DNA of 24,399 nt. Source: a virus. The translations under genes were made by a program, and so were the position numbers. Location of the stretch: the IMG/VR virus record IMGVR_UViG_3300025879_000103, positions 1 through 24,399 of that record, one strand, 5' to 3'. Of the stretch, positions 255-11,642 are shown in pieces (position 1 is the stretch's first letter; each line of letters begins with the position of its first letter). A model generated the notes under the pieces. That model worked only from the letters and a program-made list of their open reading frames with translations. It had not been told where the DNA came from and made no database searches.

Positions 255-489
255 AGATTACAAACGTGAGCGTCAGCTACAGAGTACTCCTTCTGAGTTA
301 AAGAAGAATGCTGCACGTAAGGCTGCTAGGCGTAAGTTAGAGAAACAAGGTAAAGTACGTAAGGGTGACGGTAAGGATGTTGACCACAAGGATGGCAATC
401 CTAGGAATAACAAAACGTCTAACCTTCGTGTAACAACCAAGAGAGCCAACCGTAGCTTCCCTCGTAACAGTAAAGCAGGTAAAGCGTAA
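247..489 (+). CDS. Small HNH-like basic protein
   Basis: An 80-residue, strongly basic protein. Residues 44-61 carry an HNH-type core (DVDHKDGNP, then NN and NLR), with H47 as the putative catalytic/metal-adjacent histidine and N51, N54, N55 and N59 as the asparagines seen in phage HNH modules. The N-terminal 40 residues are Lys/Arg-rich helix rather than a zinc-binding domain, so this is a minimal HNH relative whose nuclease activity is uncertain. HNH proteins near terminase genes can help packaging in some phages, but terminase lies 4 kb away here. SD-like GAGAGCGAAG precedes the ATG. The stop overlaps the next start (TAATG). Similar short proteins are familiar from marine phages; the exact role is not known. 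Confidence 0.8.
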   Translation: MARDYKRERQLQSTPSELKKNAARKAARRKLEKQGKVRKGDGKDVDHKDGNPRNNKTSNLRVTTKRANRSFPRNSKAGKA

Positions 490-767
490 TGGCTATTGAG
501 TATCGTGGAGAGAAGTTTGAAGGTTACAACAAACCCAAGCGCACCCCTAAGCACCCAACTAAATCCCACGCAGTACTCGCCAAGGAAGGTGACACCATTA
601 AGCTCATCCGCTTTGGTGAACAGGGAGCATCCACAGCAGGCAAGCCTAAAGAGGGTGAATCTGATCGCATGAAGAAGAAACGTGCCAGCTTCAAGGCTAG
701 ACACGCTAAGAACATCAAGAAGGGTAAGCTCTCAGCAGCTTACTGGGCAGATAAGGTGAAGTGGTAA
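489..767 (+). CDS. Conserved small basic phage protein, unknown function
   Basis: A 92-residue, Lys-rich protein that begins and ends in TAATG overlaps with its neighbours. The central segment (DTIKLIRFGEQG, about residues 35-46) followed by a basic helix (KKKRASFKARHAKNIKKG) and the terminal SAAYWADKVKW is a pattern I recall from cyanophage and other marine phage small proteins. No enzymatic motif is visible. Charge suggests nucleic-acid binding, but that is inference. Its placement in a run of six overlapping small basic genes suggests co-translation with them. Confidence 0.8.
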   Translation: MAIEYRGEKFEGYNKPKRTPKHPTKSHAVLAKEGDTIKLIRFGEQGASTAGKPKEGESDRMKKKRASFKARHAKNIKKGKLSAAYWADKVKW

Positions 768-937
768 TGGCTAAGTCTCCTACCCCTACAAACAAGAAGC
801 TGTATGCTAAAGTAAAGGCTGAAGCTAAGAAGAAGTTTGACGTATGGCCCAGCGCTTATGCGTCTGCTTGGCTCACTAAGACATACAAAGCACGTGGAGG
901 TAAGTACAGTGGCACAACGAAGAACAAAGTCTCGTAG
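767..937 (+). CDS. DUF5872-like protein, N-terminal half
   Basis: A 56-residue ORF starting at the ATG that overlaps the previous stop (TAATG, 765-769) and ending at TAG 935-937. The segment LYAKVKAEAKKKFDVWPSAY followed by ASAWLTKTYKARGGKY resembles the first part of DUF5872-type small proteins of phages and large DNA viruses, in which a helical YPSAY/GGxY region is followed by a GLxKWFxEKW region. Here the second region is in the next, overlapping frame (909-1181). The protein is therefore either a free-standing half or the product of gene fission. Basic, no enzymatic residues visible; function unknown. Family assignment is from memory of the pattern. Confidence 0.7.
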   Translation: MAKSPTPTNKKLYAKVKAEAKKKFDVWPSAYASAWLTKTYKARGGKYSGTTKNKVS

Positions 938-1181
938 TCAACACGTACTGCCGAAAGCTAGGGGTTACTCTGCTGGTGGCTTAGGTAAGTGGTTTGGTGA
1001 AGAGTGGACGGACGTTAAGACAGGTAAGCCTTGTGGAAGACAAGCAGGTGACGGTAGGGACTACCCAGCCTGTAGGCCAAAGGCAGTAGCTTCTAAGATT
1101 AGCAAGAAAGAAGCAGCAAAGAAGACAGGCCCAAAGAAAGTTAAGTGGTCTACAACAGCATCAGGGAGAAAACGGACATGA
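909..1181 (+). CDS. DUF5872-like protein, C-terminal half (GTG start)
   Basis: A 90-residue protein. The frame is open further upstream to an ATG at 837, but GTG at 909 is chosen because a clear Shine-Dalgarno GGAGG lies at 896-900, eight bases upstream, and because the ORF then overlaps its neighbour by only 29 bases. It contains SAGGLGKWFGEEWTDVKTG, then CGR and YPACRPK and a Lys-rich tail ending SGRKRT. This is the second region of DUF5872-type composites, with Cys pairs that could bind metal. It ends in an ATGA overlap with the next gene. Function unknown; probably nucleic-acid binding (inference). Confidence 0.75.
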   Translation: MAQRRTKSRSQHVLPKARGYSAGGLGKWFGEEWTDVKTGKPCGRQAGDGRDYPACRPKAVASKISKKEAAKKTGPKKVKWSTTASGRKRT

Positions 1182-8847: not shown

Positions 8848-9025
8848 GAAGCTAGTTAACGATAAACAGATATGGGATGCGTTCATTGAGGAGCTTGATG
8901 GGTGCATCTCTTCCACACATAGAAGTATGGAAAACATCTCTGATACTGCAGAGCTATACCGACATCAGGGTGCTATCAAAGCGCTGAGACAACTAAAGTA
9001 CTTGAGGGATAAAGTTAATGGCTGA
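8837..9025 (+). CDS. Small conserved protein after the portal
   Basis: 62 residues from ATG 8837 (AAGGG at 8822-8826). An earlier in-frame GTG at 8816 has no SD, so 8837 is preferred. All-helical and charged (KQIWDAFIEELDGCISSTHR; YRHQGAIKALRQLKYLRDKV). Short proteins with a terminal 'ALRxLKxLRDxVN' helix recur just downstream of portal genes in marine podoviruses I recall; their function is not established. Overlaps the portal end by 11 bases and the next gene's start by 8 bases, suggesting coupled translation and a virion-assembly role. Confidence 0.75.
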   Translation: MSLKKLVNDKQIWDAFIEELDGCISSTHRSMENISDTAELYRHQGAIKALRQLKYLRDKVNG

Positions 9026-11642
9026 CTTAGACAACCAGACAGAGGAAGCTTTAGGTTGGGCTGCAGAGGGCAAGAAGCTTGCAGTCGATATACCAGAGGT
9101 GTCCTTTAAAGATGCTGGTACTTTTGTCGCTAGTATGACACCTATTATTGGTGACGCTATGGCTGCTAAAGATGTCTATGATGAACTACAGAAAGATGAG
9201 CCTAACTACTATTTAGCGGGTGCGCTGGGCGGAGCTGCTCTTGTAGGACTTGTACCAGGTTTAGGTGACGCTGCTGCTAAAGCTATTAAGAAGGGTGCTA
9301 AAGAAGTATTTGATGTAGCTAAGCGTGTAGAGGTAGATCCTAATGCTATGGGTTCTGGTTTAGGCAACTTGAGGCTAAAACCTAAACAAGACGATGTAGC
9401 AGAAGCTGCTGCCATCTTAGATAGTGATGAGGCTCTTTCAGCTTGGCAACAGGCTAATAAGATACCTGAAAATAAACGCCAAGCAAATACAGAAGCTGCT
9501 AAAGCTGCTGCAGAAGACCTATACCAAGGTAGTATCACATCCAAAGAAGCACGTAATATAATCAAAGAAGACTTACCTGTTACTTCAATATATACTGAAG
9601 AGACTATGCCTTCAATGCCTACTGTTGCACAGGTCGCAGGCTCTTTAGGTAAGAAGGTACAAAAGACTGGTGTTGTGGGTGTAAAGGGTTTTGACATACC
9701 TGCAGGCACTCGTGTAGGCTCTAGGTTAGACATCCCTGCGTACAACAACTACGACACTTGGGTAGTATCTATTCATGACGGTAAGAACGACACTAAAGGT
9801 TCTGTTCTAGGTTACGGTCAGGCTGTTCGTCTTAAGAACATTAAGTTTGGGTCTGAGTCACAGGATGCACTAGATATTGCTAGAGGGAAAGCACGATTAA
9901 GGGGTGCAAAAGCAGGTACGGATACTCCAGAGAAGCCTATGGGTAAGGCTACTATTGCTCGTGTGTATGGTGACTACGTTCCAGAAGACCCTTACGTCTT
10001 ACAAGAACAAGCACGTAAGCTTTTATCTGACTCTGAGTGGACACAAGTAGGTATGAACCCTTACAGGCAGAGTAATTTCTATGATAAGAATACAGGTCTT
10101 CCCGTATTTGAGGCTGATGAGGTTATTCAGGTAGGGCCATTAGTATTGGCTAAGGGTGTAAAGAAACCCACTAAAACACAACTAAAAGAGCTTGCTGTTA
10201 GAACTAAAGATGGCAAACTTAGATTATTCAACGAGGGCGGAGCAGTAATGGATGAACAAATGGAAATGGCCTTCGGTGATGAAGGTGAACGTGTAGACCC
10301 TGTGTCAGGAAATGAAGTACCTACAGGCTCACTACCGGAAGAAGTACGTGATGACATCCCTGCTCAACTGAGTGAAGGTGAGTATGTTGTACCTGCTGAT
10401 GTAGTACGCTTCTTTGGCGTTAAGTTCTTTGAGGACATCCGTAATGAAGCCAAGCGAGGCTTTGCTGATATGGAAGCTAATGGACGCATCGGTGGTGAGC
10501 CTATCGGTGAGACTGGCATGGAGATGGGTGGTGATGAATTACCTTTTGACGTGTCTGAGTTACAGATGGTTGATGACTCTTCAGAAGAGCAACCTATGAT
10601 GAACCAAGGTGGTTTTATCTCTGGTTATGCTGAAGGCGGTGAATCCGCTCTACCGTACCACGTTGCCACAGGATCTGATAGCAGCGGCTTTGAGATTCGT
10701 ACCTTTATTGGAGCAGATGGAACAAAGTATTATATTCAGTTTATGAATGGTAAACCTTTAACACCTATTCCTGATGGCGCTACTCAAGAAGCTACTGCGG
10801 CTGAACAGGTATCTACTCAAGTAGAAACAGCAGCAGCAACAGGTACTGCTACATCTAATAACTCTAATGACAATGATAGTACACCACCACCTCCTCCAGC
10901 AGAAGCTTTTGACTGGTCTGACCCTACTGTTGCTACACCTGAAAAGTTTCTATCAACTTACGAAGACATTAAGGGTATGGGTACAGGCCTATCCTATGGT
11001 GCAGGTCTTATGTTAGGTCCGTTAGCAGGACTTGGTGTAAAAGGTCTAATGAAACTACAAGAAAACTCTATGCTTAAAGGCCTTGATAGTCAGATTGAAT
11101 CTCTTACAAATACTGGCAATACTTCTCAAGTTAAAAAGCTAGAAGAAATTCGCAACATTATGCAAGGTAAGAACGCAGACGGCTCTGATAAACTTAGAGA
11201 AGCGCCTACTGGTATTGAATTACTTACAAGTGGTGAGACATACAGAGGTAATAGTATTACAGAGTCCCTTGCCAATATCCTAACAAAAGGAGATGGTAAA
11301 TCTTACAGAAACGGTGTTCTTGTAGATGATGCAACAGGCGCTGTTCTTGAGCCTGGCTTTGCAAACAGCAAGAGTAATGACCCTGTTAGCACTCCTACAT
11401 CTCAACCTTCACAAAATAATGGGGGTGGGAATAATGACAATGACACCCATACTTCTGCGATGAGAGCTGCTAAGGCTGCCGCTGAAGCAAAAACAGCTGC
11501 TGCTAAAGAGACCACAAGTGGTATAACAACAGGTACAAGTACTTCTACTGCATCAGATGATACAACAGCAGGTGGTGCTTCTTTAGACACTGCCTATGGT
11601 ATATCAGGACTAAATAAAGGCGGCTTGATGAAGAAGAAGTAA
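9018..11642 (+). CDS. Large mosaic probable internal virion protein
   Basis: 874 residues, several modules. Residues 41-103 (TPIIGDAMAAKDVYDELQKD, hydrophobic GALGGAALVGLVPGLGDA, then a basic helix) resemble the 'pretoxin'-type transmembrane motif found in phage internal proteins and polymorphic toxins. About 218-384 (ending GMNPYRQSNFYDKNTGLPVF and ADEVIQVGPLVLAKG) resembles a domain of phage polyvalent proteins. Residues 446-485 (DIPAQLSEGEYVVPADVVRF then FGVKFFEDIRNEAKRGF) are a segment widespread in marine phage virion proteins. A second Gly-rich hydrophobic segment is at about 653-678. Low-complexity linkers join these parts. Short N-x-GG motifs occur at 405, 529 and the C-terminus (NKGGLMKKK). 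Between portal and scaffold, a capsid-internal or ejected protein is likely; enzymatic activity is not shown. Confidence 0.8.
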   Translation: MADLDNQTEEALGWAAEGKKLAVDIPEVSFKDAGTFVASMTPIIGDAMAAKDVYDELQKDEPNYYLAGALGGAALVGLVPGLGDAAAKAIKKGAKEVFDVAKRVEVDPNAMGSGLGNLRLKPKQDDVAEAAAILDSDEALSAWQQANKIPENKRQANTEAAKAAAEDLYQGSITSKEARNIIKEDLPVTSIYTEETMPSMPTVAQVAGSLGKKVQKTGVVGVKGFDIPAGTRVGSRLDIPAYNNYDTWVVSIHDGKNDTKGSVLGYGQAVRLKNIKFGSESQDALDIARGKARLRGAKAGTDTPEKPMGKATIARVYGDYVPEDPYVLQEQARKLLSDSEWTQVGMNPYRQSNFYDKNTGLPVFEADEVIQVGPLVLAKGVKKPTKTQLKELAVRTKDGKLRLFNEGGAVMDEQMEMAFGDEGERVDPVSGNEVPTGSLPEEVRDDIPAQLSEGEYVVPADVVRFFGVKFFEDIRNEAKRGFADMEANGRIGGEPIGETGMEMGGDELPFDVSELQMVDDSSEEQPMMNQGGFISGYAEGGESALPYHVATGSDSSGFEIRTFIGADGTKYYIQFMNGKPLTPIPDGATQEATAAEQVSTQVETAAATGTATSNNSNDNDSTPPPPPAEAFDWSDPTVATPEKFLSTYEDIKGMGTGLSYGAGLMLGPLAGLGVKGLMKLQENSMLKGLDSQIESLTNTGNTSQVKKLEEIRNIMQGKNADGSDKLREAPTGIELLTSGETYRGNSITESLANILTKGDGKSYRNGVLVDDATGAVLEPGFANSKSNDPVSTPTSQPSQNNGGGNNDNDTHTSAMRAAKAAAEAKTAAAKETTSGITTGTSTSTASDDTTAGGASLDTAYGISGLNKGGLMKKK

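Follow-up and report, generated by a model that had tools for sequence, protein, structure and literature searches.

In the window, the whole 24.4-kb stretch of DNA that was analysed (virus record IMGVR_UViG_3300025879_000103, a fragment), genes N and C are predicted to be two genes that yield separate chains, and C very probably starts at GTG 909 with the help of a GGAGG that lies inside the RGGKYSG codons of N. According to our preferred reading, the products would be separate small basic proteins, each comprising one module of DUF5872 and each encoded in a chain of overlapping mini-genes. Translation of N would probably help ribosomes to start C at GTG 909, and the two proteins would be co-produced in linked amounts, as separate chains. 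The modules would be head-associated and probably DNA-contacting cargo, again acting as individual chains. In T4-like phages, the joined modules have a gp21-type [LI]xE site ahead of each of them, and the chain would be cut in the head, whereas podophages without a PF03420-type protease would obtain the same pieces from overlapping genes. We assign a probability of about 0.75 to this explanation as a whole, i.e., overlapping mini-genes together with a role as head cargo. With this explanation, a widespread viral protein family of unknown function is resolved into two modules that can be separated, and the phage head becomes a location that can be tested for them.

The first 6 kb of the window share 81% identity with Roseobacter phage CRP-207 (87% covered), which a table in PMC9038755 lists as an HMO-2011-type phage. 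By this similarity, the window is assigned to a marine, CRP-207-like podophage of the HMO-2011 type. Positions 3-2015 contain eight consecutive ORFs with successive overlaps of 8, 1, 1, 29, 4, 4, and 1 bases, and thus look like a long chain of coupled genes. The features around the N/C overlap are summarized in Table 1. The original prediction had described the ORFs 767-937 and 909-1181 as lying in different frames with an overlap of 29 bases, and exactly this arrangement was found. The spacing between the GGAGG and the GTG is 8 bases.

Table 1. Features of the N/C gene pair and its junctions in the window
Feature	Position	Strand	Description
Gene K	489..767	+	92 aa, basic; phrog_7595, E 2e-42; neighbouring module
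TAATG junction	765..769	+	K stop and N start share one base
Gene N	767..937	+	56 aa, ATG start, pI 10.3; DUF5872 first module, core PSAYA
GGAGG, predicted Shine-Dalgarno (SD) motif for gene C	896..900	+	within Gly-Gly codons of N
GTG, predicted start of gene C	909..911	+	within Ser-Gly codons (AGT GGC) of N
Dual-coding overlap, 29 bases	909..937	+	N frame 0, C frame +1
Gene C	909..1181	+	90 aa, GTG start, pI 10.8; DUF5872 second module; W..W.D, CGR, YPxCRP
ATGA junction	1178..1181	+	gene C with next mini-gene 1178-1354

Selection was quantified with 18 sequences that have the exact geometry of the window, resulting in 153 pairs. The dN/dS value was 0.10 for the 40 codons of N that precede the overlap (153 pairs) and 0.13 for C after the overlap (153 pairs). 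Both frames, tested outside the overlap, are under purifying selection, and because of these two values the N/C pair is more than a chance arrangement of open frames.

The Pfam model PF19197 (DUF5872) has 116 positions and a cut-off of 27.5 bits. Gene N exceeded this cut-off with its match to profile positions 1-49 (42.6 bits, E 1e-10), whereas gene C, which matched positions 51-103 (23.8 bits, E 7e-5), remained below it. Because these two matches follow each other, the ORFs 767-937 and 909-1181 tile one model in order, in agreement with the earlier proposal of a DUF5872-like protein in two pieces. A search of the window record with PF19197 yielded only the first (N) match above the cut-off. 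In contrast to the Pfam model, the window has two genes, and the two DUF5872 parts do not reside in one chain but in different frames with a 29-base overlap. Judged from the distribution of the matches, DUF5872 is better seen as two modules, which are also found apart or with other partners. In two relatives (L033 and L160), another module precedes C within the same ORF, and in S-BM3 and Sf-CH8 a match for N was found but C had no match at the threshold used. In the open library searched, the only trace of DUF5872 was a table entry for a protein of a giant algal virus (PMC12085832), and this protein is left unexplained by a role as head cargo.

Several additional observations concern the N module. 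Two Cys residues flank PSAYA in fused and in some split N modules (L005, L006, and L007), whereas by eye the N of the window is without both of them, so the loss was possibly paired. In Synechococcus phage Sf-CH8 (L012), the N-module protein is encoded downstream of a cytidyltransferase-like gene, and its start region is shared with the cytidyltransferase-like family phrog_764 (E 1.5e-6). A putative cytidylyltransferase is among the virion proteins of S-SM1 in the consulted text of PMC3037559. In S-BM3, only weak PHROG matches (E 0.005 and 1e-4) pointed to a C-like part ahead of N, which is therefore not claimed.

Next, relatives of the window's own sequences were compared. Two viral-contig scans yielded 157 loci (L015-L171), and the addition of the window and of 14 loci from named phages gave 172 sources; the loci are the best 80 per query, so that fractions describe these sets and not nature, and related sequences are not independent. 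HMM searches located N and C modules close together in 164 of the 172 sources, corresponding to 110 regions that are distinct by sequence, the window included. Three of the loci (L005, L059, and L086) have N and C separated by about 220-540 bases. CRP-207 and CRP-2, both HMO-2011-type podophages, have the same two overlapping genes in the +1 frame as the window, and in CRP-2 (L002) the embedded GTG is directly visible. However, the deposited records of these phages differ from the window in gene C. In CRP-207 (L001 2591-2848), the deposited gp69 comprises only the last part of gene C. In CRP-2 (L002 2260-2548), the deposited gp69 is an out-of-frame ORF over gene C, and gene C was missed. The latter case shows how automatic annotation can miss the second gene of such a pair.

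Fused homologues had been anticipated in the original prediction, and they were indeed found. A genome-contig scan revealed a contig titled as a WOR-3 bacterium (L257), on which N, C, and K reside in a single frame of 408 aa. A scan with the L257 protein, a query that favours fused forms and of which the best 80 loci were taken, had N and C in one frame in 77 of these 80 (68 distinct ORFs). K, detected with an HMM iterated from the gene K protein, was joined as well in 15 of the 77, which together with L257 makes 16 N-C-K loci. The three exceptions (L285, L313, and L331) have N and C in separate ORFs; in L313 and L331, N is located behind a Cys-rich domain and C is found in another ORF with a different leader. 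In addition, Flavobacterium phage vB_FspM_immuto encodes a fused 156-aa protein, immuto35A_186, that has N followed by C with the same cores as the window. It differs from the window pair in being one chain with ILSE and LLQE segments, and its phage has a gp21-type protease.

Head genes were searched in 20 contigs picked by hand, mostly the longer ones, from the loci of the fused query (19 with fused forms and that of L331). Twelve contigs contained a tailed-phage terminase, 12 Portal_T4, and 10 Gp23. Fused N-C proteins exist in T4-like phages. The capsid family PF16903, which would indicate a giant-virus origin of the fused contigs, was found in 0 of the 20 contigs, where the controls were likewise silent. 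The distribution of both forms was analysed with a tree of 52 representatives and 126 columns, which was obtained with a short search, is unrooted, and comes with a long-branch warning. On this tree, the fused and split states required 4 changes (at least 2 by well-supported branches), compared with a mean of 16.2 after shuffling. Junction types among the split forms changed more often than fused versus split, and two split rows (L007 and L256) were located on the fused side. Because the tree is unrooted, fission and fusion are indistinguishable as the direction of change.

The fused proteins carry [LI]xE in the segments ahead of N and C, often with Lys as the next residue. In T4, gp21 cuts after L/I-x-E (from the consulted part of PMC9026906), and the capsid targeting sequences of the internal proteins are cut by gp21. 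The fused relatives share with these internal proteins an [LI]xE-ending segment before a basic module and, by analogy, may work like T4 internal head proteins. The enrichment was quantified by residue shuffles after segments had been thinned at 0.7 similarity. [LI]xE was present in 33 of 35 non-redundant N-C linkers (22.9 after shuffling) and in 40 of 40 segments before N (23.4 after shuffling), and in both cases 0 of 500 shuffles were as high. The effect was larger for [LI]xEK[KR], with 19 sites in linkers versus 1.3 after shuffling and 15 sites before N versus 1.4. As spacing controls, [LI]E was at chance and [LI]xxE was mildly raised (49 versus 38.9 in linkers and 40 versus 31.8 before N). 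Inside the fused modules, [LI]xE was found in 0 of 40 N modules (0.4 expected) and in 0 of 62 C modules (3.5 expected).

A second set of segments came from L338-L417 and S-BM3 (81 sources, 48 N-module ORFs, and 27 non-redundant upstream segments). Before N, [LI]xE occurred in 19 of 27 segments versus 8.6, and [LI]xE[KR] had 13 sites versus 2.0. After N, [LI]xE was not enriched (22 versus 19.3 sites), whereas [LI]xE[KR] was (10 versus 3.1). In L285, C and N reside in separate ORFs, each equipped with a leader that, by eye, has LDE-K or IDE-K at its end. The immuto protein was found after the motif idea had been formed and was therefore used as a check on it; the segment before N ends with ILSE and that before C with LLQE.

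The PF03420 protease was detected in 10 of the 20 contigs (9 of the 19 fused ones and that of L331) as well as in S-BM3, Sf-CH8, and immuto. The fused contigs, of which only 9 of 19 were positive, are possibly fragments. Portal_T4 and Gp23 were both present in 11 records (8 fused contigs, that of L331, immuto, and S-BM3), and all 11 also had PF03420. Three contigs without PF03420 and with one head gene each (G005, G013, and G014) have this gene within about 7 kb of the contig end. On the split side, PF03420 was absent from eight named phages, seven with both modules (CRP-207, CRP-2, C72C1, P-SCSP2, HTVC027P, CRP-902, and DSL-LC04) and one with a C match only (CRP-7), in a search in part of which the controls were silent; the same query was positive in other records. 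It was also not found in the 24-kb window record, which is a fragment. The HK97-type protease PF04586 was found in 0 of 16 records, with positive controls. Among the overlap-class proteins, N contained [LI]xE in 0 of 68 and C in 4 of 68 cases. In contrast to the T4 internal proteins, those encoded by the window lack this kind of leader, and a protease of this type is absent from the window record. Because the protease is general in T4-like phages, its association with the fused form may reflect nothing more than the shared ancestry of these phages. The motif at the module borders is a more specific sign than the presence of the protease. A cut polyprotein and mini-genes would represent two interchangeable routes to the same small basic head peptides, with DUF5872 being not a domain but two cargo peptides that the Pfam model joins; we regard this generalization as possible but rather doubtful. 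If true, head cargo that depends on a protease and head cargo that does not would be connected across very different phages.

A location in the head is also suggested by gene neighbourhoods. In P-SCSP2, the scaffold gene and N overlap and the capsid gene comes two genes after C, and in DSL-LC04 the capsid and cement genes are followed by three small genes and then N. Among the matches listed for the S-BM3 protein (60 rows of 497 records), 3 of 60 were labelled structural or virion protein (RN05-S, S-E7, and S-SCSM1); these are labels only, and the match of S-SCSM1 is confined to the last part and does not include N. Virion proteomics has been reported for S-SM1 in PMC3037559, the consulted text of which does not mention this protein group, and a search of the open-library literature for virion proteomics of the window phage or its podophage relatives returned none. 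The sequence-derived evidence makes a head role of the N and C modules plausible, although at somewhat less than even odds. The modules could alternatively be cytoplasmic nucleic-acid-binding or host-takeover proteins, and the [LI]xE segments would then be ordinary amphipathic linkers. This would be consistent with the strongly basic nature of the N and C products and with the behaviour of the reversed motif E-x-[LI], which was over-represented in linkers (60 versus 40.0 sites) and, in the second set of segments, also before N (19 versus 10.8 sites; 14 of 27 segments versus 8.6). However, the first set showed no enrichment of the reversed motif before N (36 versus 33.5 sites), [LI]xEK[KR] at module borders exceeded the shuffled level about 11-15 times, and the positions of N and C near head genes in P-SCSP2 and DSL-LC04 also speak against this alternative. 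We therefore consider the cytoplasmic alternative a serious one, albeit with the odds against it.

Another possibility is that N and C are the halves of a split protein, whose separate chains rejoin to a two-subunit complex that does the job of the fused protein. The two modules indeed keep close company: N was also present in 81 of 84 loci that had been fetched with the C protein alone (L174-L257), and the three loci lacking N are truncated directly ahead of C. N and C also adjoin in the fused form, and overlapping gene pairs often encode subunits of complexes, as indicated by the title of PMC10666635. The structural prediction, which is of low confidence (mean pLDDT 64.6, pTM 0.31) and too uncertain to decide the matter, does not favour such a complex; in the fused model, N forms two helices, C is predicted as a part of its own, and residues 44-71 between them are below pLDDT 50. 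The model of C alone is of similarly low confidence (mean pLDDT 60.4), and a PDB search with the low-confidence fused model yielded no match. Furthermore, the linkers vary widely in both length and sequence, the modules are in other cases separated or combined with different partners, and S-BM3 and Sf-CH8 yielded an N match but no C match at the threshold used. A rejoining complex is a serious alternative with the odds against it, and two independently acting chains remain the preferred reading.

The start of gene C is embedded in the conserved motif RGGKYSG near the end of N. Its codon usage was analysed in 82 distinct sequences of the overlap class; 56 distinct sequences with an N match that fell short of the motif were left out of the test. 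For the first Gly, 77 of the 82 sequences use GGA or GGG, compared with 13 of 64 sequences of other arrangements that have Gly at this position (Fisher p 3e-21, an optimistic value as the sequences are related). In contrast, just 4 of 82 use GGA or GGG for the second Gly, and therefore a general preference for purine endings is not the reason. The GTG is present in 76 of the 82 sequences, and all 76 of them have GGA or GGG as the first Gly codon. The Ser codon, in spite of its six-fold degeneracy, is AGT in 74 of 74 cases, and the Gly that follows is encoded by GGC in 75 of 76; AGT GGC reads GTG GC in the frame of C. These Ser and Gly codons are the least variable of the degenerate codon columns listed. 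The GGAGG and GTG that had been noted for the second piece are thus conserved at synonymous positions of N, i.e., gene C has its own SD motif and start codon, and both are conserved beyond the needs of N. The six overlap-class sequences without the GTG (L241, L246, L248, L250, L252, and L253) by eye have another GTG a few codons further on in the N tail, and the same is true for L056, L069, and L009. In the adjacent +2 class, an ATGA join was found in 18 of 19 distinct sequences, and the remaining one (L003) has TAATG. In L048, TAA is followed by an ATG of C's own. Because the relatives use ATGA, TAATG, TAA followed by ATG, other GTGs, or distance, a separate start of C is maintained in several different ways, of which the window has the embedded one with 29 bases of overlap.

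An independent start of gene C, as predicted from these codon patterns, is well supported. The window pair is an unusual representative of a known category, namely overlapping genes of which the second is initiated independently. It resembles gene pairs coupled by termination-reinitiation in having an overlapping stop and start within a chain of such genes, but differs from them by its 29-base overlap and by a strong SD motif inside a conserved motif; in the consulted parts of the literature, the common overlap is 1 or 4 bases. The pair is a clean case of a conserved protein motif whose codons also provide the following gene with its ribosome binding site and start codon.

A frameshift fusion had been proposed as one of two origins of the arrangement; here, this would be a programmed +1 frameshift that generates an N-C fusion. 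C is in the +1 frame relative to N in 103 of the 110 distinct regions (and +2 in 7), and in the window the frame of C is open deep into N, from position 816, both of which speak for such a frameshift. However, the conserved signals are an SD motif and a start codon, neither of which a frameshift needs, and the sequence at the N stop varies and, by eye, has no common slippery site. The own ATG of C after the N stop in L048 and the ATGA in the adjacent +2 class also argue against it. Within the overlap, where values are rough due to dual coding, the frame of C is only loosely constrained as protein (dN/dS 0.89, 153 pairs), and the frame of N is constrained more strongly (0.26, 129 pairs). A frameshift fusion is thus very improbable.

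The other proposed origin was a gene fission fixed by a new start site, of which the own start of C is well supported; for the change itself, fission and fusion would both fit the tree. Although fused homologues exist, a recent fission or a sequencing error in the window genome alone has a negligible probability and is ruled out by recurrence, because the same N/C pair is found in 109 other distinct regions, CRP-207 and CRP-2 among them, none of the 110 distinct regions (a set collected by relationship to sequences of the window) has a fused N-C open frame, and dN/dS is about 0.1 in both genes.

Some further observations concern the neighbouring genes. Gene K showed only a weak Pfam match to UPF0240 (E 0.012), below the cut-off; a likeness to DUF6321 was seen by eye only and is not claimed, and no paper on DUF6321 was found in the open library searched. 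The mini-gene 1178-1354, scanned as ORF 1145-1354, had no Pfam match. It encodes a 58-aa mini-protein rich in Cys and Gly, and a basic GG-M/L-like stretch is also located at the end of the 874-aa protein encoded at 9018-11642. Lastly, the ORF 2116-2286 encodes a DUF1127 protein (E 1e-7) and is located upstream of the phage terminase genes.
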